Source of the DNA: Flavobacterium sp. ov086
GTDB taxonomy: Bacteria; Bacteroidota; Bacteroidia; Flavobacteriales; Flavobacteriaceae
DNA length: 64,000 nt
Direction of reading: 5' to 3'
NCBI RefSeq assembly: GCF_900187965.1
Contig: NZ_FZNL01000003.1
Location: 186,001 to 250,000 of the forward strand
A program made the translations under genes and the position numbers. The notes beneath the pieces were generated by a model. That model searched no databases, was not told the origin of the DNA, and was given only the letters and a program-made list of their open reading frames with translations. Shown in pieces: positions 444-55,971 of the stretch (positions within the stretch are counted from its first letter, which is position 1; each line of letters begins with the position of its first letter).

Positions 444-500
444 ATGAAAACATTAATGAACAATACTTGGTGGTGGAAGAATTTACGTCAAACGTCGTGA
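444..500 (+). CDS. trpL: trp operon leader peptide with three consecutive Trp codons
   Basis: An 18-residue ORF reads MKTLMNNTWWWKNLRQTS and ends in TGA at 498-500. The three Trp codons occupy 468-476. It lies just upstream of an intrinsic terminator and of trpE, so its predicted role is to sense charged tRNA-Trp: a ribosome stalled at the Trp codons leaves bases from about 494 on unpaired. The stop codon itself is part of the predicted antiterminator strand. The peptide probably has no function beyond being translated. Such leaders are established for trp operons in Proteobacteria; assigning that role here is inference from position, codons and the paired RNA structures. Confidence 0.85.
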   Translation: MKTLMNNTWWWKNLRQTS

Positions 501-570
501 ACAAAGCTTCCTATGGTATTGTAAAACTATAAATATAAAAGGCTTGTCATCACGACAAGCCTTTTTTTTT
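494..570 (+). promoter_or_regulatory. trp attenuator: competing antiterminator and terminator
   Basis: The terminator hairpin pairs 537-548 with 554-565 (core GGCTTGTC/GACAAGCC, loop ATCAC) and runs into a T tract at 562-570. The alternative structure pairs 494-500 (GTCGTGA) with 550-556 (TCACGAC) perfectly and continues with 501-504 (ACAA) against 544-547 (TTGT) and 506-507 (GC) against 542-543. Both structures use bases 542-547 and 554-556, so they exclude each other. The upstream strand includes the leader stop codon. A ribosome at the stop would cover it and allow termination; a ribosome stalled on the Trp codons would free it and allow readthrough into trpE. Confidence 0.82.
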
Positions 571-2570: not shown

Positions 2571-2647
2571 GTTTCAGGTTTAAAGTTTCAAGTTTCACGT
2601 TCCAATCTAACTTGAAACTTGAAACAAAGAAAACTTGAAACAAAACA
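2571..2647. repeat. GTTTCA-type intergenic palindrome, lipoprotein to trpG junction
   Basis: Words GTTTCAGG, GTTTCAAG and GTTTCACG on the left are mirrored by CTTGAAACTTGAAAC and CTTGAAAC on the right. It runs up to the trpG start, and an in-frame extension of trpG into this repeat is probably not translated. Confidence 0.75.
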
Positions 2648-2655
2648 AAAAAGAC

Positions 2656-3222
2656 ATGAAAAAGATATTAGTTATAGACAATTACGATAGTTTCACTTAT
2701 AATTTAGTGCACTATTTAGAAGATTTAAATTGTGAAGTTACGGTTTACAGAAATGACGAATTTGATATTGATGAAATCGCTTCTTTCGACAAAATATTAC
2801 TTTCGCCAGGTCCTGGAATTCCGGATGAAGCGGGTTTATTAAAAGCGGTTATTCAGAAATATGCTCCAACGAAAAGTATTCTTGGCGTTTGTTTGGGACA
2901 ACAAGCGATTGGAGAAGTTTTTGGCGGAACACTTTCTAACCTTGACAAAGTGTATCACGGAGTTGCAACAAATGTAAAAACTGTAGTTTCAGACGAAATT
3001 TTATTCGAAGGTTTAGGAGACGAATTCGAAGTTGGAAGATACCATTCATGGGTTGTTGATGCTAATTTACCAGATGTTCTTGAAGCAACTTCAATCGACG
3101 AAAACGGACAAATTATGTCTTTAAGACACAAAACTTTTGATGTAAGAGGCGTTCAGTTTCATCCTGAAAGTGTTTTGACTCCAAAAGGAAAATTGATTTT
3201 AGAGAATTGGATAAAAAGCTAA
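2656..3222 (+). CDS. trpG: Anthranilate synthase component II (glutamine amidotransferase)
   Basis: TrpG releases ammonia from glutamine and passes it to TrpE. The 188-residue protein has the class I amidotransferase triad: Cys79 in GVCLGQQ, and His169 and Glu171 in FHPES. The N-terminus MKKILVIDNYDSFTYN is typical of the family, so I used ATG 2656. An upstream in-frame start at 2635 would add residues encoded by the intergenic repeat. Length matches stand-alone TrpG. Because its partner trpE is one gene upstream, the two subunits should be made from the same transcript. A dual role with PabB in folate synthesis is possible, as known for some relatives. Confidence 0.95.
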   Translation: MKKILVIDNYDSFTYNLVHYLEDLNCEVTVYRNDEFDIDEIASFDKILLSPGPGIPDEAGLLKAVIQKYAPTKSILGVCLGQQAIGEVFGGTLSNLDKVYHGVATNVKTVVSDEILFEGLGDEFEVGRYHSWVVDANLPDVLEATSIDENGQIMSLRHKTFDVRGVQFHPESVLTPKGKLILENWIKS

Positions 3223-3230
3223 TTTTTTTT

Positions 3231-3304
3231 GTTTCAAGTTTAAGGTTTCAAGTTGTTGGAACGTGAAACTTGAAACCTGAAACTTGAAACCTGAAACCTT
3301 AAAC
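3231..3304. repeat. GTTTCA-type intergenic palindrome, trpG to GNAT junction
   Basis: GTTTCAAGTTTAAGGTTTCAAG on the left half is mirrored by CTTGAAACCTGAAAC words on the right half around a GTTGGAACGTG centre. The centre is shared with the copy after trpE, so the copies belong to one family. Confidence 0.78.
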
Positions 3305-3321
3305 TTAGAATCTTAAAAAAA

Positions 3322-3729
3322 ATGGAAATAACAATTTTAGAAACCAAAGAAATCAATATCGACGACATTTTAGTTTTATACAAAGCAAATGAATGGAGTT
3401 CTGCCAATAAACCAAATGAGTTATACAACGCCCTTTTAAATTCCGAAACTTTAATTACGGCTTGGGAAGGAGAAAAATTAGTTGGACTTGGAAACGCAAT
3501 TTCTGATGGATTTTTAACGGTTTATTATCCGCATTTATTGGTTTTACCGGAATATCAGGGAAAAGGAATTGGAAAACTGATTATGGACAAAATGCAAGAG
3601 AAATACAGTCACTTTCACATGCAAATGTTAACCGCTGACGGAAGATCTGTTGATTTTTATAAAAAGAACGGATTTGAACGCGCAGGAAAAACAGAACCCA
3701 TGTGGATTTACCAAGGAAATGAACATTAA
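3322..3729 (+). CDS. GNAT family N-acetyltransferase
   Basis: The 135-residue protein matches a single GNAT domain. The acetyl-CoA pyrophosphate-binding motif A is visible as LVLPEYQGKGIGKLIM at about residues 73-88, and the C-terminus has the common FYKKNGFERAG element. GNAT enzymes transfer an acetyl group from acetyl-CoA to an amine; the substrate cannot be read from the sequence. It sits between trpG and trpD on the same strand, preceded by a GTTTCA palindrome, so it should be co-transcribed with the trp genes. Whether it acts on a tryptophan-related metabolite or is a passenger is unknown. Confidence 0.82.
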   Translation: MEITILETKEINIDDILVLYKANEWSSANKPNELYNALLNSETLITAWEGEKLVGLGNAISDGFLTVYYPHLLVLPEYQGKGIGKLIMDKMQEKYSHFHMQMLTADGRSVDFYKKNGFERAGKTEPMWIYQGNEH

Positions 3730-3771
3730 AGCAGTTTCCAGTTTCGGTTTTCAAAAAACTTAGCAACTCAG

Positions 3772-3787
3772 TCCCGAAGCTTCGGGA
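3772..3787. repeat. TCCCGA-N4-TCGGGA palindrome
   Basis: A 16-base palindrome (TCCCGAAGCTTCGGGA) between the GNAT gene and trpD. Four further copies with variable centre occur at 14922, 31444, 33953 and 60361 in this window. Confidence 0.7.
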
Positions 3788-3812
3788 TAGCAACTTAGAA
3801 CCTTAAAAAAAA

Positions 3813-4805
3813 ATGAAAAATATACTAAATAAATTAATCAATCACGAAGTGCTTTCAAAAGAGGAAGCTAAAGATGTATTGATTAATATCTCAAGCGGAA
3901 GTTATAACCCAAGTCAGATCTCAGCATTTTTGACCGTATTTATGATGCGAAGCATAACGATTGATGAGCTTTCGGGATTTCGTGAAGCTTTATTAGAATT
4001 ATGTGTTCGCGTAGACTTATCTGCCTACAATACCATAGATTTATGCGGAACTGGCGGTGACGGAAAAGACACTTTCAACATTTCAACTCTCGCCTCTTTT
4101 GTTGCTGCCGGCGCAGGAATAAAAGTAGCCAAACACGGAAATTATGGGGTTTCGTCGATTTCAGGATCAAGTAACGTAATGGAAAAAATGGGAATAAAAT
4201 TCAGCAATGATCCTTCATTTTTAGAGAAATGTATCGATCAGGCCGGAATCTGTGTGTTACACGCTCCCCTATTTCACCCGGCAATGAAAAACGTTGGACC
4301 AATCAGAAAAGAACTGGCAGTAAAAACCTTCTTTAATATGTTAGGACCAATGGTGAATCCATCGTTCCCAAAAAATCAATTGGTTGGAGTTTTCAATCTG
4401 GAATTAGCCAGAATGTATGCTTATTTATACCAAAATACCGATGTGAATTTTACCATTCTACATTCGCTTGACGGTTATGATGAAATTTCATTAACTGGCC
4501 CAACGAAAATTATTACAAGCGATATGGAAGGGATGATAAAACCGGAAGATTTCAAGGTTCGTCTTTTATCACAAAGAGAAATTGAAGGAGGAAGAACAAT
4601 TGAAGAATCGGCAGATATGTTTGTCAATATCATTTCCGGAAAAGGAAGTGAGGCACAAAATAATGTTGTTTGTGCAAATGCAGCGATGGCGATTTCAACA
4701 GTAACAAAATGCTCTCCACAAGAAGGTTTTAAACAAGCGAAAGAAAGTTTGTTCTCCGGAAAAGGATTGAAAGCTCTTAAGAAATTACAAGAATTAAGTA
4801 GGTAA
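3813..4805 (+). CDS. trpD: Anthranilate phosphoribosyltransferase
   Basis: TrpD joins anthranilate to phosphoribosyl pyrophosphate, the second step of tryptophan synthesis. The 330-residue protein carries the PRPP-binding GTGGDGKDTFNIST motif at 79-92, the KHGNYGVSSISGSSNVMEKMG segment near 108-128, and a helical N-terminal domain ending in the SGFREAL region, all as in the family. Length is normal. It lies 83 bases after the GNAT gene, with a TCCCGA palindrome in the gap, and is followed by another GTTTCA palindrome before trpC. Confidence 0.96.
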   Translation: MKNILNKLINHEVLSKEEAKDVLINISSGSYNPSQISAFLTVFMMRSITIDELSGFREALLELCVRVDLSAYNTIDLCGTGGDGKDTFNISTLASFVAAGAGIKVAKHGNYGVSSISGSSNVMEKMGIKFSNDPSFLEKCIDQAGICVLHAPLFHPAMKNVGPIRKELAVKTFFNMLGPMVNPSFPKNQLVGVFNLELARMYAYLYQNTDVNFTILHSLDGYDEISLTGPTKIITSDMEGMIKPEDFKVRLLSQREIEGGRTIEESADMFVNIISGKGSEAQNNVVCANAAMAISTVTKCSPQEGFKQAKESLFSGKGLKALKKLQELSR

Positions 4806-4811
4806 AAAATA

Positions 4812-4882
4812 GTTTCAAGTTTTCTTTGTTTCATGTTTCAAGTTGTTGAACGTGAAACAAATAAAACTTGAAACATGAAACA
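4812..4882. repeat. GTTTCA-type intergenic palindrome, trpD to trpC junction
   Basis: GTTTCAAG, GTTTCATG and GTTTCAAG on the left face CGTGAAAC, CTTGAAAC and CATGAAAC on the right. The last word supplies an in-frame ATG (4875) that an ORF finder would take as the trpC start. Confidence 0.75.
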
Positions 4883-4889
4883 AAATAAT

Positions 4890-5675
4890 ATGAATATTTT
4901 AGATAAAATAATATTTGACAAACAGCGAGAAGTTGTTCTTAAAAAATCGATCATTCCGATTTCACAATTGGAAAACTCAGTATTTTTTGGAAGAGAAACG
5001 ATTTCTTTAAGTCAAAAATTAAAGACAAGTGCAACAGGAATTATTGCAGAACACAAACGACGTTCTCCTTCAAAATCAATAATCAATCAAAGTTTTACGG
5101 TTGAAGAAGTGGTAAAAGGATATGAAAATGCAGGTGCTTGCGGAATTTCAGTTTTAACAGATGGAAAGTATTTCGGAGGTTCTCTTGATGATTTACTTTT
5201 AGCAAGAGCAAGTGTCAATATTCCGCTTTTGCGAAAAGAATTTATTGTTGATGAATATCAGATTCTGGAAGCAAAAGCTTTTGGAGCCGATTTAATTCTA
5301 CTAATTGCAGCAGTTTTAACACGCGAAGAAATTAAATCGTTATCAGAATTTGCTAAAAAACTAGGTCTCGAAGTCCTTTTAGAAGTTCACAATCAGGAAG
5401 AACTGGAAAAATCGATTATGCCAAGTTTAGACATGATTGGTGTAAACAACAGAAACTTAAAAACTTTTGAAGTAAGTCTGGATTTCAGCAAGCAATTAGC
5501 TTCTCAAATCCCAAATGATTTTATAAAAGTTTCTGAAAGCGGAATCTCGTCAATCGAAGCCATTTCAGAACTAAGACCTTACGGTTACAATGGGTTTTTA
5601 ATTGGAGAAAACTTCATGAAAACTGATAACGCCGGTGAAGCTGCAACAGAATTCATTCAACAATTGAATATGTAA
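4890..5675 (+). CDS. trpC: Indole-3-glycerol phosphate synthase
   Basis: TrpC closes the indole ring: it converts carboxyphenylaminodeoxyribulose phosphate to indole-3-glycerol phosphate. The 261-residue (beta/alpha)8 protein has the catalytic-lysine motif IIAEHKRRSPSK near residue 52, LLRKEFIVDEYQI, and the phosphate-binding VSESGISS and GFLIGENFM segments near the C-terminus. I chose ATG 4890 (MNILDKIIFDKQ), which fits the family; the in-frame ATG at 4875 falls in the repeat. TrpC and TrpF are separate proteins here, not fused as in enteric bacteria. Confidence 0.96.
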   Translation: MNILDKIIFDKQREVVLKKSIIPISQLENSVFFGRETISLSQKLKTSATGIIAEHKRRSPSKSIINQSFTVEEVVKGYENAGACGISVLTDGKYFGGSLDDLLLARASVNIPLLRKEFIVDEYQILEAKAFGADLILLIAAVLTREEIKSLSEFAKKLGLEVLLEVHNQEELEKSIMPSLDMIGVNNRNLKTFEVSLDFSKQLASQIPNDFIKVSESGISSIEAISELRPYGYNGFLIGENFMKTDNAGEAATEFIQQLNM

Positions 5676-5683
5676 AAAAGTTC

Positions 5684-5741
5684 GCCACGAATTTCACTAA
5701 CTAGCACGAATTAATTAGTGACAATTCGTGAAATTCGTGGC
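5684..5741. repeat. CCACGAAT-type palindrome between trpC and trpF
   Basis: GCCACGAATTTCAC at 5684-5697 is perfectly inverted at 5728-5741, enclosing a second small palindrome (TAATTAGTG region). Similar elements are at 15871-15950, 43159-43219 and 63562-63646. The following bases up to the trpF start contain further CTTAGTGTCTTAGCGCC words. Confidence 0.85.
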
Positions 5742-5795
5742 AAAAAAGAAAAAACTTAGTGTCTTAGCGCCTTCGTGGCAAAAACATCAAAAAAA

Positions 5796-6458
5796 ATGAA
5801 ACTTAAAATCTGCGGTATGAAATATCCCGACAATATACTCGAAGTAGGCGCGCTCCTACCCGATTATATGGGATTTATTTTCTGGGAAAAATCCGCTCGC
5901 TATTTTGACGGAACGATTCCGGAACTGATTCACACCATTAAAAAAACAGGCGTTTTTGTAAATGAAACTGTTGATAATATCCTGTCAAAAGCAGAGAAAT
6001 ATCATTTACAAGCAGTTCAGTTACATGGAAAAGAATCTGTTGAATTTTGTCAGGAATTAAAATCTAAAATTGACGCCAAAGTTGGTGTTACAATCGAAAT
6101 CATCAAAGTATTCTCTGTCGATGAAGATTTTGATTTCGAAATTTTAAAACCTTTTGAAAACGTATGCGATTATTTTCTATTCGATACAAAAGGAAAACTA
6201 CCAGGAGGAAACGGAACCACTTTTGACTGGAAAATATTAGAAAATTACAAATCTGAGAAACCGCTGTTTTTAAGTGGTGGCATTGGAATTGAAGAAATAC
6301 CCGCAATAAAAAATCTTAAAATTCCGATTTATGCAATTGATGTAAACAGTAAATTTGAGACAGAACCGGGATTAAAAAATAAAAGTTTATTAAGAAAGTT
6401 TCAGAAAAATTTAAAACCTGCGACTATAAACCCTAAACAACTACACAATGAATTATAA
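5796..6458 (+). CDS. trpF: Phosphoribosylanthranilate isomerase
   Basis: TrpF performs the Amadori rearrangement of phosphoribosylanthranilate, the third step of the pathway. The 220-residue protein starts MKLKICGMKYPDN, with the catalytic Cys in KICGM. It has the VQLHG segment near residue 80, the Asp in LFDTKG near 130, and the phosphate-binding LSGGIG near 157. An in-frame GTG at 5775 lies in the intergenic repeat and is rejected in favour of ATG 5796. Its 3' end overlaps trpB by 11 bases, suggesting coupled translation. Confidence 0.95.
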   Translation: MKLKICGMKYPDNILEVGALLPDYMGFIFWEKSARYFDGTIPELIHTIKKTGVFVNETVDNILSKAEKYHLQAVQLHGKESVEFCQELKSKIDAKVGVTIEIIKVFSVDEDFDFEILKPFENVCDYFLFDTKGKLPGGNGTTFDWKILENYKSEKPLFLSGGIGIEEIPAIKNLKIPIYAIDVNSKFETEPGLKNKSLLRKFQKNLKPATINPKQLHNEL

Positions 6459-7629
6459 TGTCAACGAAAAGGGATATTACGGAGAATTTGGAGGAGCTTA
6501 CATTCCAGAAATGTTGTATCCAAATGTAGAAGAATTACGCCAAAACTATTTAAAAATAACAAGCGAACCAGATTTTAAAGCTGAGTTTGACCAATTGCTA
6601 AAAGATTACGTTGGACGCCCAAGTCCACTATATTTTGCAAAACGCTTATCTGAAAAATACAATACCAAAGTATATTTAAAAAGAGAAGACTTAAATCATA
6701 CCGGAGCACATAAAGTCAACAATACAATTGGACAGATATTAGTTGCCAAACGTTTGGGTAAAAAACGAATTATTGCCGAAACCGGAGCTGGTCAACACGG
6801 TGTGGCAACCGCAACAGTTTGTGCACTTATGGGATTGGAATGTATCGTTTATATGGGTGAAATTGACATTGCAAGACAAGCGCCAAACGTTGCCCGTATG
6901 AAAATGTTAGGCGCTGAGGTTCGTCCTGCACTTTCAGGTTCAAGAACGTTGAAAGATGCTACAAACGAAGCCATTAGAGATTGGATTAACAATCCTGTAG
7001 ATACTCATTATATTATAGGTTCTGCAATTGGACCACATCCTTATCCAGATATGGTGACACGTTTTCAGAGTGTAATTTCAGAAGAAATAAAATGGCAGTT
7101 AAAAGAAAAAGAAGGACGCGAAAATCCTGATTATGTAGTTGCTTGTATTGGTGGCGGAAGTAATGCTGCCGGAACTTATTACCACTTTTTGCACGAGCCG
7201 GAAGTTGGCATTATCGCCGTTGAAGCTGCCGGAAAAGGCGTAGATAGCGGTCATAGTGCGGCAACTAGTAAACTAGGAAAAGTGGGCGTTATTCACGGTT
7301 GCAAAACTCTTTTAATGCAAACTCCTGACGGGCAAATTACAGAACCGTATTCGATTTCGGCAGGTTTAGATTACCCGGGAGTTGGTCCAATGCACGCACA
7401 TTTAGCACAAACAGGTCGTGGCGAGTTCTTCTCCGTAACGGATGATGACGCTATGAACGCTGGTTTGCAATTGACTAAATTAGAAGGAATTATTCCGGCA
7501 ATTGAAAGTGCGCATGCTTTTGCCGTTTTAGATCAAAAGGAATTTAAACCTACAGATATTGTAGTTATCAGCCTTTCAGGACGCGGCGACAAAGATTTAG
7601 ACAATTATATCGAATATTTTAAATTGTAA
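6448..7629 (+). CDS. trpB: Tryptophan synthase beta chain
   Basis: TrpB uses pyridoxal phosphate to condense indole with serine to form tryptophan. The 393-residue protein has the PLP lysine in HTGAHKVNN (Lys89), the GGGSNAAG phosphate-binding loop near residue 233, and the conserved FGGAYIPE N-terminus. The start overlaps the end of trpF. It is of the common TrpB1 type by length and motifs. Its partner trpA is not adjacent but lies about 1.5 kb downstream, after two unrelated genes. Confidence 0.97.
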   Translation: MNYNVNEKGYYGEFGGAYIPEMLYPNVEELRQNYLKITSEPDFKAEFDQLLKDYVGRPSPLYFAKRLSEKYNTKVYLKREDLNHTGAHKVNNTIGQILVAKRLGKKRIIAETGAGQHGVATATVCALMGLECIVYMGEIDIARQAPNVARMKMLGAEVRPALSGSRTLKDATNEAIRDWINNPVDTHYIIGSAIGPHPYPDMVTRFQSVISEEIKWQLKEKEGRENPDYVVACIGGGSNAAGTYYHFLHEPEVGIIAVEAAGKGVDSGHSAATSKLGKVGVIHGCKTLLMQTPDGQITEPYSISAGLDYPGVGPMHAHLAQTGRGEFFSVTDDDAMNAGLQLTKLEGIIPAIESAHAFAVLDQKEFKPTDIVVISLSGRGDKDLDNYIEYFKL

Positions 7630-7639
7630 AAATATAATT

Positions 7640-7752
7640 GGGGCGTTATCCGCCGCCGTGGTCGGGCTGTCCGCTATATTCCCGATAACAAAAACTACGG
7701 CTAAAAAGCCTTGTTTTTCTAAATCGGGAGATACCGCTCTTATCCCTAACGC
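7640..7752. repeat. GC-rich nested palindromic element after trpB
   Basis: The 113-base block is markedly richer in G and C than its surroundings. Its ends are inverted (GCGTTA at 7643-7648 and TAACGC at 7747-7752). Inside, TCCCGAT faces ATCGGGA, and the innermost part has AACAAAAA...GGCTAAAAAGCC...TTGTTTTT. The layered symmetry suggests a structured RNA or a repeated extragenic element. From memory, similar blocks with GGGCGTTACC...CCCTAACGC ends are scattered in Flavobacterium genomes. Confidence 0.7.
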
Positions 7753-7781
7753 AAAAAACAACTAACGAGAAAATAGTAATT

Positions 7782-8099
7782 ATGGAAAAGTTATTCTCTT
7801 ACGGAACATTAAGATCGAAACAAATTCAGATGCAGATTTTTAACAAAGTTCTAACCGGAACTCCAGATCAGCTTTTGGGTTACAAACTAAAAAGTCTACA
7901 AATAGAAGAAGAATTTGGAATGGCAGACTATGTTGTAGCTGTGCCCAGCGCAGATTCTTCAGATCCTATACATGGTGTTGCTTTTAATATTTCAGCTTCG
8001 GATTTAGCTAAAGTAGATATATTCGAATCTAATGCTTATAGAAGAGTTCAGGTCAAGTTGAAATCCGGAACAGTTGCCTGGGTTTATATAGAAAGTTAA
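7782..8099 (+). CDS. Gamma-glutamylcyclotransferase-like (AIG2/GGCT) protein
   Basis: The 105-residue protein opens with MEKLFSYGTLRS, the YGTL motif that forms the substrate pocket of the gamma-glutamylcyclotransferase fold. The acidic residue expected in the catalytic position is likely the Glu in DIFESNAYRRV near residue 88. Family members cleave or cyclise gamma-glutamyl amines or peptides; the exact substrate is not predictable. It stands between trpB and the nitrilase-like gene, 12 bases before the latter, so the two form a tight pair inside the trp operon. Confidence 0.8.
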   Translation: MEKLFSYGTLRSKQIQMQIFNKVLTGTPDQLLGYKLKSLQIEEEFGMADYVVAVPSADSSDPIHGVAFNISASDLAKVDIFESNAYRRVQVKLKSGTVAWVYIES

Positions 8100-8111
8100 T
8101 AAGTAAGCAAA

Positions 8112-8849
8112 ATGATTCTAGCAGCAGCACAAACAAAACCAACTCGTGGAGATATTGATTCTAACTTATTAGATCATTATCGCCTTATCGATTTGGCGGT
8201 ACAAAACGGAGCACAATTAATCGCTTTTCCTGAAATGTCTATTACAGGTTATGAACGTGAATATGCCCAAAAACTAGCTTTCAAAAAAGACGATTCAAGG
8301 TTAGATCATTTAAAAAAATTAGCTTCCGAAAATAATATCATTATTATTGCCGGAGCTCCAATTCAAATAGAATCTCAATTGTTTATTGGGGAATTTATAA
8401 TTTCTCCTGATAATTCGGTTGTCATCTATACAAAGCAATTTTTGCATGAAGGCGAAGATGAGTTTTTTCAATCTTCATTCAATCATAATCCGATGGTTAC
8501 AATTGAAGAGCAAAAGATTTCGTTTGCCATTTGTGCTGATATTGATAATCCACTTCATCCGGAAAATGCCTGCAAAAGAGCAACTGATATTTATATCGCA
8601 AGTATATTCTTTACACCAAACGGAATTCCCAGTGCGTATAGAGACTTACAAAGTTATGCTCAAAAACATCAAATGAATGTTTTGATGTCAAATTTTAGCG
8701 GAGAATCCTGGGGATCACCTTCGGCAGGGCAAAGTGCTTTTTGGAATAACAAAGGAGAACTTGTAGCTCAAATGAACGACTCAGATTCGGGATTACTTAT
8801 ATTAGAAAACAAAAATGATAATTGGACAAGTCAGATTTTAAAAATTTAA
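8112..8849 (+). CDS. Carbon-nitrogen hydrolase (nitrilase superfamily)
   Basis: The 245-residue protein has the Glu-Lys-Cys catalytic set of the superfamily: Glu in AFPEMSITGYE near residue 41, Lys in YTKQFLHEGED near 108, and Cys in FAICADIDNP near 139. Members hydrolyse amides or nitriles or condense amines. The superfamily branch cannot be decided by eye. It lies between trpB and trpA on the same strand, and a paralogue with the same layout is found at 26012-26740. A link to tryptophan-derived amides or nitriles is possible but unsupported. Confidence 0.85.
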   Translation: MILAAAQTKPTRGDIDSNLLDHYRLIDLAVQNGAQLIAFPEMSITGYEREYAQKLAFKKDDSRLDHLKKLASENNIIIIAGAPIQIESQLFIGEFIISPDNSVVIYTKQFLHEGEDEFFQSSFNHNPMVTIEEQKISFAICADIDNPLHPENACKRATDIYIASIFFTPNGIPSAYRDLQSYAQKHQMNVLMSNFSGESWGSPSAGQSAFWNNKGELVAQMNDSDSGLLILENKNDNWTSQILKI

Positions 8850-8901
8850 AAAATAATGCCACAGATTAAAAAGATTTTCACTGATTATTGCTGCAAATTT
8901 A

Positions 8902-8988
8902 TTTCACGCAGATTTAAATTGATTTAAGCAGATTCGAGCAGAATTATATTAATTAAAATCTGCCTTAATCTGCAGAATCTGCGTGAAA
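8902..8988. repeat. Inverted repeat with TTTCACGCAGATT ends
   Basis: TTTCACGCAGATT at 8902-8914 is perfectly inverted at 8976-8988. The inner part contains further AGCAGATT/AATCTGC words. It occupies most of the gap between the nitrilase-like gene and trpA, together with related CACAGATT words to its left. Confidence 0.8.
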
Positions 8989-9055
8989 CAAAAAATCCGA
9001 GAGAATCTTTTATCCAAATATAAATTGGAAGTGGTTAAAGAATAATAACATACTT

Positions 9056-9076
9056 AATAGGTTTTAAGAACCTATT
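9056..9076 (+). promoter_or_regulatory. Hairpin in the trpA leader
   Basis: AATAGGTT (9056-9063) and AACCTATT (9069-9076) form an 8-base-pair stem with a 5-base loop, ending 19 bases before the trpA ATG. There is no T tract, so it is not a usual terminator. It could be a processing or translation element, or a small repeat. Confidence 0.4.
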
Positions 9077-9095
9077 AGGATAAAAAATAAAAACA

Positions 9096-9857
9096 ATGAA
9101 CAGAATAACTCAAAAATTACAAGAAGATAAAAAGATACTTTCTATTTATTTTTCTGCTGGATATCCAAACCTGAACGATACGGTTCAAATTATTCAGGAT
9201 TTAGAAAAAAACGGTGTTGATTTAATCGAAATTGGTTTGCCTTTTAGTGATCCTTTAGCCGATGGACCAACGATTCAGGCAAGTTCTACACAAGCTCTTC
9301 ATAACGGAATGACAACTCAGATTCTTTTTGATCAGTTGAAGAACATCCGCGAAAGCGTAAAAATTCCGTTGATTATTATGGGATATTTTAATCCGATGTT
9401 GCAATATGGAGTTGAAAAATTTTGCGCTAAATGTGCCGAAATTGGTATCGACGGATTAATTATTCCGGATCTTCCAGTTGATGTTTATGCGGATGAATAC
9501 AAAGCTATTTTCGAAAAATACGGTTTAATCAACGTATTCTTAATTACGCCACAAACGTCAGACGAACGTATTCGTTTTATTGACAGTGTTTCAAACGGAT
9601 TTATTTATATGGTAAGTTCTGCAAGTGTTACAGGATCTCAGGCTGGTTTTGGAAATACACAGGAAAGTTACTTCGAAAGAATTGGAAGTATGAATTTGAA
9701 AAATCCACAAATAGTAGGTTTCGGAATTTCGAACAAAGAAACTTTTAATCAGGCTACGAAATTTGCAAAAGGAGCTATTATTGGAAGTGCTTTTATTAAA
9801 CATTTAAGTGAGAGTGGAAGCGGGAAAATTGAGGAATTTGTTGGAGAGATCCGATAA
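9096..9857 (+). CDS. trpA: Tryptophan synthase alpha chain
   Basis: TrpA cleaves indole-3-glycerol phosphate to indole and glyceraldehyde phosphate, passing indole to TrpB. The 253-residue (beta/alpha)8 protein carries the catalytic Glu45 and Asp56 in IEIGLPFSDPLADGP, and the phosphate-binding segments VSSASVTGSQ and GFGIS later in the chain. Length is normal. It is the last trp gene, about 250 bases from the gene before it, with a palindromic repeat and a small hairpin in the gap. It could therefore be read from the trp promoter or from its own. Confidence 0.96.
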   Translation: MNRITQKLQEDKKILSIYFSAGYPNLNDTVQIIQDLEKNGVDLIEIGLPFSDPLADGPTIQASSTQALHNGMTTQILFDQLKNIRESVKIPLIIMGYFNPMLQYGVEKFCAKCAEIGIDGLIIPDLPVDVYADEYKAIFEKYGLINVFLITPQTSDERIRFIDSVSNGFIYMVSSASVTGSQAGFGNTQESYFERIGSMNLKNPQIVGFGISNKETFNQATKFAKGAIIGSAFIKHLSESGSGKIEEFVGEIR

Positions 9858-10011: not shown

Positions 10012-10053
10012 AAGCTGAATTAATATCTCACGATGTTAATTCAGCTTTTTTTT
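10012..10053 (+). terminator. Intrinsic terminator after trpA
   Basis: AAGCTGAATTAA (10012-10023) pairs with TTAATTCAGCTT (10036-10047), a 12-base-pair stem followed by a T run to 10053. It closes the trp operon after the 106-base palindrome. Confidence 0.85.
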
Positions 10054-10122: not shown

Positions 10123-10161
10123 ATTAAACAACTGTTTAATTTAAACACTTGTTTAATTTTG
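10123..10161 (+). promoter_or_regulatory. Tandem TetR operators and -7 box of the efflux operon
   Basis: Two palindromes of the same design lie side by side: TTAAACA-AC-TGTTTAA (10124-10139) and TTAAACA-CT-TGTTTAA (10141-10156). The second overlaps TAATTTTG (10154-10161), a match to the -7 consensus TAnnTTTG. The arrangement is that of a repressor covering its own promoter, and the next gene encodes a TetR-type regulator. Binding by that regulator is inferred. Confidence 0.75.
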
Positions 10162-55669: not shown

Positions 55670-55741
55670 TAGTCTGTAAGGGAATCGAACCCCTGTTACC
55701 AGGACGAAAGCCTGGAGTCCTAACCCCTAGACGAACAGACC
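55670..55741 (-). tRNA. tRNA-Glu (TTC), divergent copy
   Basis: The minus strand folds into a cloverleaf: acceptor GGTCTGT/ACAGACT, D-arm after TTCGTCTA, anticodon stem CCAGG/CCTGG with loop CTTTCGT (anticodon TTC), and T-arm AGGGG-TTCGATT-CCCTT. The CCA end is not encoded. The body differs at many positions from the two identical tRNA-Glu copies that precede it, while sharing the anticodon. The first base pair is read as G-T. Confidence 0.9.
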
Positions 55742-55784
55742 ATATCCCTCTAAGTTTTCTTCAATTTATATGAAATTGAAATTG

Positions 55785-55856
55785 TAGCCCGTAGCGGAAT
55801 CGAACCGCTCTTACATGGATGAAAACCATGCGTCCTAACCGATAGACGAACGGGCC
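55785..55856 (-). tRNA. tRNA-Glu (TTC)
   Basis: Cloverleaf on the minus strand: acceptor GGCCCGT/ACGGGCT, anticodon stem CATGG/CCATG with loop TTTTCAT (anticodon TTC), T-arm AGCGG-TTCGATT-CCGCT. Identical to the copy at 55900-55971. The CCA end is added after transcription. Confidence 0.95.
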
Positions 55857-55899
55857 ATTTTACATTAAGTTAAATAACTTGAATCGCAGAAAAAAAGAG

Positions 55900-55971
55900 T
55901 AGCCCGTAGCGGAATCGAACCGCTCTTACATGGATGAAAACCATGCGTCCTAACCGATAGACGAACGGGCC
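55900..55971 (-). tRNA. tRNA-Glu (TTC)
   Basis: Identical in sequence to the copy at 55785-55856 and first in the transcript. A canonical promoter lies directly upstream on the minus strand (55991-56020). Confidence 0.95.

Follow-up and report, generated by a model that had tools for sequence, protein, structure and literature searches.

The stretch of DNA analysed here (the window, 64,000 nucleotides) comes from a Flavobacterium, and the own genus, family, class and phylum mentioned below are Flavobacterium, Flavobacteriaceae, Bacteroidia and Bacteroidota. Near its start, ahead of a trp operon, lie a short reading frame with tandem Trp codons and an intrinsic terminator. The question raised by this locus is whether these parts make up a transcription attenuator governed by a translating ribosome and, if they do, whether it is a switch of two alternative hairpins in which the leader stop codon takes part, as the first-pass annotation had it, or an arrangement like that of the E. 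coli trp leader, with its three exclusive structures.

Anatomy of the leader and of the operon

The elements identified are the following, given with their coordinates in the window, strand and basis.

398-405, +: TAnnTTTG promoter-like element (TATCTTTG); the leader ATG follows after 38 nt.
424-548, +: match to Rfam RF01692 (Bacteroid-trp), 72 bits against a gathering threshold of 49, model positions 1-131.
444-500, +: leader peptide reading frame of 18 codons, MKTLMNNTWWWKNLRQTS and then the stop; read directly.
460-522, +: protecting hairpin (1:2 type), proposed pairs 460-467/515-522, 475-479/507-511 and 482-487/496-501; from the minimum-energy fold, the Rfam consensus hairpin and controls.
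468-470, 471-473 and 474-476, +: three tandem TGG Trp codons, the proposed sensing site; read directly, WW or WWW in relatives.
494-507, +: antiterminator strand GTCGTGA...AAGC, starting 17 nt past the last Trp codon; compensation in diverged leaders.
498-500, +: leader stop codon TGA; read directly, its place relative to the antiterminator strand differing between relatives.
537-570, +: intrinsic terminator, 12 pairs at 537-565, a 5-nt loop and a T tract at 562-570.
542-556, +: antiterminator partner, made of the terminator 5' arm, the loop and the start of the 3' arm; read directly and modelled.
620-2020, +: trpE, first gene of the operon, with a probable TTG start; TIGR00564 at 2.1e-132 on the reading frame 569-2020, below the curated cut-off of that family.
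2635-9857, +: trpG, trpD, trpC, trpF, trpB and trpA with inserted genes; family matches.
2118-2564, 3322-3729, 7782-8099 and 8112-8849: four non-trp genes inserted within the trp operon.

The anatomy described in the first-pass annotation (18-codon leader, three TGG codons, stop, terminator and the alternative pairing 494-507/542-556) can be read in the sequence as it was given. The exact complements are 494-500 (GTCGTGA) with 550-556 (TCACGAC) and 504-507 (AAGC) with 542-545 (GCTT), so that both arms of the terminator would be broken by this pairing. A terminator and a competing antiterminator, as in a trp-type attenuator, are therefore both present in the window. The fold of 444-575 is better than those of 200 out of 200 dinucleotide shuffles (z -4.29). 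Taken alone, the 7-base complementarity is weak in one sequence (p = 0.0385, 2000 shuffles), and it gains conviction only through relatives.

The promoter-like element follows a consensus named in PMC6414381. Of the 149 own-family leaders described below, 143 have it in the 60 nt ahead of their ATG, against 172 of 4096 background 60-mers. Its distance to the ATG is 10-23 nt in 100 of these leaders, 4-8 nt in 39 and more than 23 nt in four, the present one included, the element being absent in six; the 38 nt of the window are thus unusual. The 39 leaders with the short distance include L037, L054, L080 and L121, and with the element so near, transcription in these loci might begin right at the ATG or beside it, the leader peptide then being made from a leaderless RNA, a reading that leans on the usual distance between element and start site.

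The start of trpE was inferred from an alignment: among 149 rows examined the pattern occurs in 27, and 22 of those have TTG at this place. One of the inserted genes has no Pfam or NCBIfam family match, and another encodes a GNAT acetyltransferase; the remaining two, for a GGACT-like protein and a carbon-nitrogen hydrolase, lie between trpB and trpA; genes inserted at this place in some Flavobacterium are mentioned in PMC2395257. A 16-pair hairpin with a T tract at 10012-10047, after trpA and before a TetR-family gene at 10159, is likely the end of the operon. Elsewhere in the window three regularly spaced tRNA genes stand in a row at 55670-55971 (-). At gathering, the three tRNA matches and RF01692 are all that the window holds, with no match to a T-box leader, and the phage collection searched gave no match. 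A his leader of the same design was sought in this genome with ATG starts only: of eight CAY5 places, two of them overlapping, none offers an ATG in the stretch from the preceding stop to the His run.

A catalogued RNA family and the part of it that is held in place

The element is not new as a kind: it belongs to a catalogued family, RF01692, with a score above gathering over the full model and a single match in the genome. It has three consecutive Trp codons (468-476) where two or more define the family, as we take it, and it lies upstream of trpE to trpA. At E <= 0.001, and with stricter filters that make each count a lower bound, RF01692 was identified in at least 40 of the 61 genomes from the genus, 178 of the 249 from the family, 15 of the 295 from the class and 42 of the 395 from the phylum; the class and phylum sets contain own-genus and own-family genomes, from which most of their matches come. 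RF01692 was listed in 2010 as a cis-regulatory candidate of Bacteroidetes (Weinberg 2010, Table 1, PMC2864571). In 2019 a Bacteroid-Trp RNA was named in Flavobacterium psychrophilum, upstream of the trp operon, and likened to the E. coli trp leader (PMC6414381); a TetR-family gene past trpA is shared with the locus described here, and the passage that names the RNA gives neither its anatomy nor a test. The Rfam model shares with the present leader the W-rich reading frame and the place upstream of trp genes. It differs in that its consensus structure is a single long hairpin, which includes the Trp-codon region, finishes before the terminator and corresponds to the protecting hairpin alone; the match ends at 548, without the antiterminator pairing or the full terminator.

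The own-family comparison starts from 168 loci picked by RF01692, 163 of which gave a W-rich reading frame and a terminator by script; the five where these were not found by script are L055, L127, L137, L146 and L157. The 163 leaders reduce to 156 distinct ones, 149 from the own family and 7 from outside. The motif TCGTGA (495-500 in the window) was identified in 144 of the 149. It starts 17-19 nt past the last Trp codon in all 144 and at exactly 18 nt in 126, and TCACGA is present in the terminator of 139. A search that did not use the motif placed the start of the best terminator-complementary run 14-19 nt past the last Trp codon in 146 of the 149 rows. The stop codon is the TGA of TCGTGA in 102 of the 144 leaders, lies upstream of the motif in 25 and downstream in 17. 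On this comparison, the RNA strand and its spacing from the Trp codons are held in place, whereas the stop codon moves. The core pairs show hardly any variation in an alignment of 41 of 43 selected sequences (L065 and L066 were excluded for long reading frames). Since the family core TCGTGA/TCACGA is almost invariant, little covariation is on offer there, and diverged members of the class were used instead of a pair-by-pair count.

Diverged relatives and the protecting hairpin

The survey outside the own family comprises 46 class genomes with a full trpE (match of at least 370 bits). A W-rich leader stands before trpE or its operon in 39 of them: 32 with WW and a terminator found by script, 2 with WW and a terminator missed by the finder, and 5 with WxW in place of WW (L206, L209, L224, L227 and L242), found in the same position before trpE. 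No W-rich leader was found in the other 7 of the 46, two of which are at contig ends. RF01692 at gathering identifies only 3 of the 34 outside-family WW-type loci (L226, L235 and L244) and misses 31; in those three, trpE follows the leader at a distance of about 1.3 kb, with room for another gene first. By script, a WW leader with terminator was missing from 17 of 69 loci, among them second genome copies (L239 and L240), a second trpE (L260), contig ends (L223 and L249), loci with terminators missed by the finder (L207 and L214) and the five WxW leaders.

The distinct leaders are 41, including three from the own genus and two others from the own family. The best complementary run lies at 11-21 nt in 37 of them, and 22 of the 41 rows reach p < 0.05 singly. 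With the three own-genus rows removed, clustering gave 26 clusters, two of them (L203 and L246) from own-family genera other than Flavobacterium. In 23 of the 26 clusters the start of the terminator-complementary strand falls 11-21 nt past the last Trp codon, against 5.4 +/- 2.2 (maximum 12) in 200 shuffled sets, a range chosen after the 41-leader result had been seen and applied equally to the shuffles. Exceptions are L201, L217 and L252, without a strand in the expected place. The mean best complementarity score is 17.58, against 13.76 +/- 0.51 in shuffles; with their own terminator the clusters score 17.44, against 12.98 +/- 0.55 with permuted ones (maximum 15.10 in 5000 permutations), and 13 of the 26 give their best score with the own terminator. 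Two leaders with hand-located terminators, tested apart, have the strand at 13 nt (L207, p = 0.032) and at 16 nt (L214, p = 0.006). The pairing is thus kept by compensation in diverged relatives. For this reason one of the two results that the first-pass annotation had named as refuting the attenuator, no covariation in relatives, was not obtained, and its claim of a terminator with a competing antiterminator stands, both on the complementarity in the window and on this compensation.

The stop codon behaves differently. It overlaps the strand in 6 of the 26 clusters, lies upstream in 6, up to 12 nt downstream in 5 and further downstream in 6, the last 3 having no clear strand. The proposal that the stop codon is itself part of the switch therefore agrees with the present sequence and with the 102 own-family leaders noted above, and fails as a general rule, the stop within the strand being one layout among several. 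The contrast drawn with E. coli is likewise true in part. Tandem Trp codons, a strand after them and a terminator before trpE are shared with the E. coli trp leader, and the same script places the trpL strand 14 nt past the Trp codons (from a 5-base run, its significance not computed) against 17 nt here, so that this distance is alike. The stop codon is what differs: in trpL it starts 9 nt past the Trp codons, upstream of the strand, and here it lies inside it.

The protecting hairpin was evaluated in two parts. The outer stem has a mean of -7.19 kcal/mol in the own family (n = 51), against -5.17 in shuffled rows (lowest of 60 set means -5.83) and -6.45 in swapped ones (lowest of 2000, -6.99); 12 of 51 rows are singly below the 5% level of the shuffles. 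In the diverged clusters (n = 26) it is weakly above control, with -6.37 against -5.64 kcal/mol in shuffles (lowest -6.20) and -5.41 in swaps, whose lowest mean of -6.76 the own mean does not pass; 1 of 26 rows is singly below the 5% level of the shuffles. The inner part, formed between the antiterminator strand and the codons that directly follow the Trp codons, gave -6.65 in the same clusters against -4.87 in shuffles (lowest -5.82) and -4.15 in swaps (lowest -5.41), with 8 of 26 rows singly below the 5% level of the shuffles. Inner-part pairing is clearer than the outer stem in diverged clusters. A third, protecting hairpin that involves the Trp-codon region is thus supported, and the leader has the 1:2 hairpin of a trp-type attenuator, one that would release the strand on stalling, its outer stem being weak in the diverged clusters.

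Proposed mechanism, alternative readings and meaning

The reading preferred here, with a probability of about 0.92, is that this member of RF01692 is a ribosome-mediated transcription attenuator for the trp operon, built as in E. coli with three mutually exclusive structures. Attenuation as such is well supported by sequence and comparison, that is, by the elements present, family membership, compensated complementarity, near-constant spacing and the support for the protecting hairpin; stalling, its timing and its dependence on Trp are what we infer. With low Trp-tRNA, the ribosome would stall at 468-476 and cover the codons just behind, opening the protecting hairpin 460-522. The freed strand 494-507 would pair with 542-556 as RNA polymerase makes it, the terminator would come too late, and transcription would proceed into trpE and onward. 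With ample Trp-tRNA, the ribosome would reach 498-500 and cover 494-507, and the terminator 537-570 would form. Without translation, the protecting hairpin would retain the strand and the terminator would form as well.

A folding model with an assumed ribosome footprint of A-16 to A+13 was consistent with this scheme. When the ribosome occupies the first, second or third Trp codon and the transcript ends at 556, pairs 494-500/550-556 have a probability of 0.98-0.99; when it stands at the stop, their probability is 0, and that of the terminator has risen to 0.96 by 565. The geometry proposed in the first-pass annotation, where a stall at 468-476 exposes the strand and a ribosome at 498-500 covers it, agrees with this result. 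Without ribosome, 504-507 are kept out of reach by the protecting hairpin up to 550, and the antiterminator is favoured at 556 (0.92, at equilibrium), for which reason the protecting hairpin would have to persist kinetically. By 565 the equilibrium favours the terminator in all states modelled, stalled ones too, in a model that leaves out the RNA hidden in the polymerase; the switch must therefore be kinetic, and a kinetic decision is accepted for the E. coli trp attenuator.

Three other readings were weighed against the preferred one. The two-hairpin switch requires the stop to sit in the antiterminator strand and does without a protecting hairpin, a reading that fits the layout of this sequence and of the 102 own-family leaders with the stop in TCGTGA. 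It is improbable, given that the stop lies outside the motif in the other 42 own-family leaders while the Trp-to-strand spacing keeps 17-19 nt, that it overlaps the strand in just 6 of 26 diverged clusters, and that the third hairpin, dispensable in the claim that only two alternative hairpins are needed, is precisely what the Rfam model describes and beats controls. Stalling by the nascent peptide in the manner of TnaC, with free tryptophan sensed in place of slow decoding of Trp codons, is still less probable. The leader peptide is short and Trp-rich, and NTWWW followed by NLRQ is recurrent in many own-genus leaders, but outside the family the peptides listed share little past WW or WxW, and the codons that follow the Trp codons pair better with the antiterminator strand than controls do, which indicates an RNA role for those codons. 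The least credible reading is a plain terminator next to a chance reading frame, with no regulation at all. An upstream gene does end at 299 and the promoter-like element is at an unusual distance; against this, an off-target WW reading frame with terminator occurred 2 times in 252108 strand-bases of trpE loci, and 32 of 46 outside-family genomes have the combination ahead of trpE or of its operon.

The E. coli-like attenuator is thus a kind of element already known, and what this comparison adds to it is the antiterminator pairing, a Trp-to-strand spacing that is nearly constant while the stop drifts, and an occurrence beyond the reach of Rfam. The literature matches listed contain no statement on these three points, though details may stand in the supplement of PMC2864571. 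It is reasonably probable that most sampled class members with a full trpE carry one attenuator design, largely missed by Rfam, where sequence and stop drift and the Trp-to-strand distance of 11-21 nt is held. Where the stop lies more than 12 nt past the strand (6 of 26 clusters), it would then be a ribosome in passage across the strand, rather than one parked at the stop, that reads the state of ample tryptophan.

A catalogued RNA family with a one-hairpin model thus proves to carry a complete, testable switch with a defined pairing to mutate, and leaders of this design also turn up well beyond the range of the Rfam model. To our knowledge, coupled transcription and translation is little studied in this phylum, and this leader is a ready case for it.
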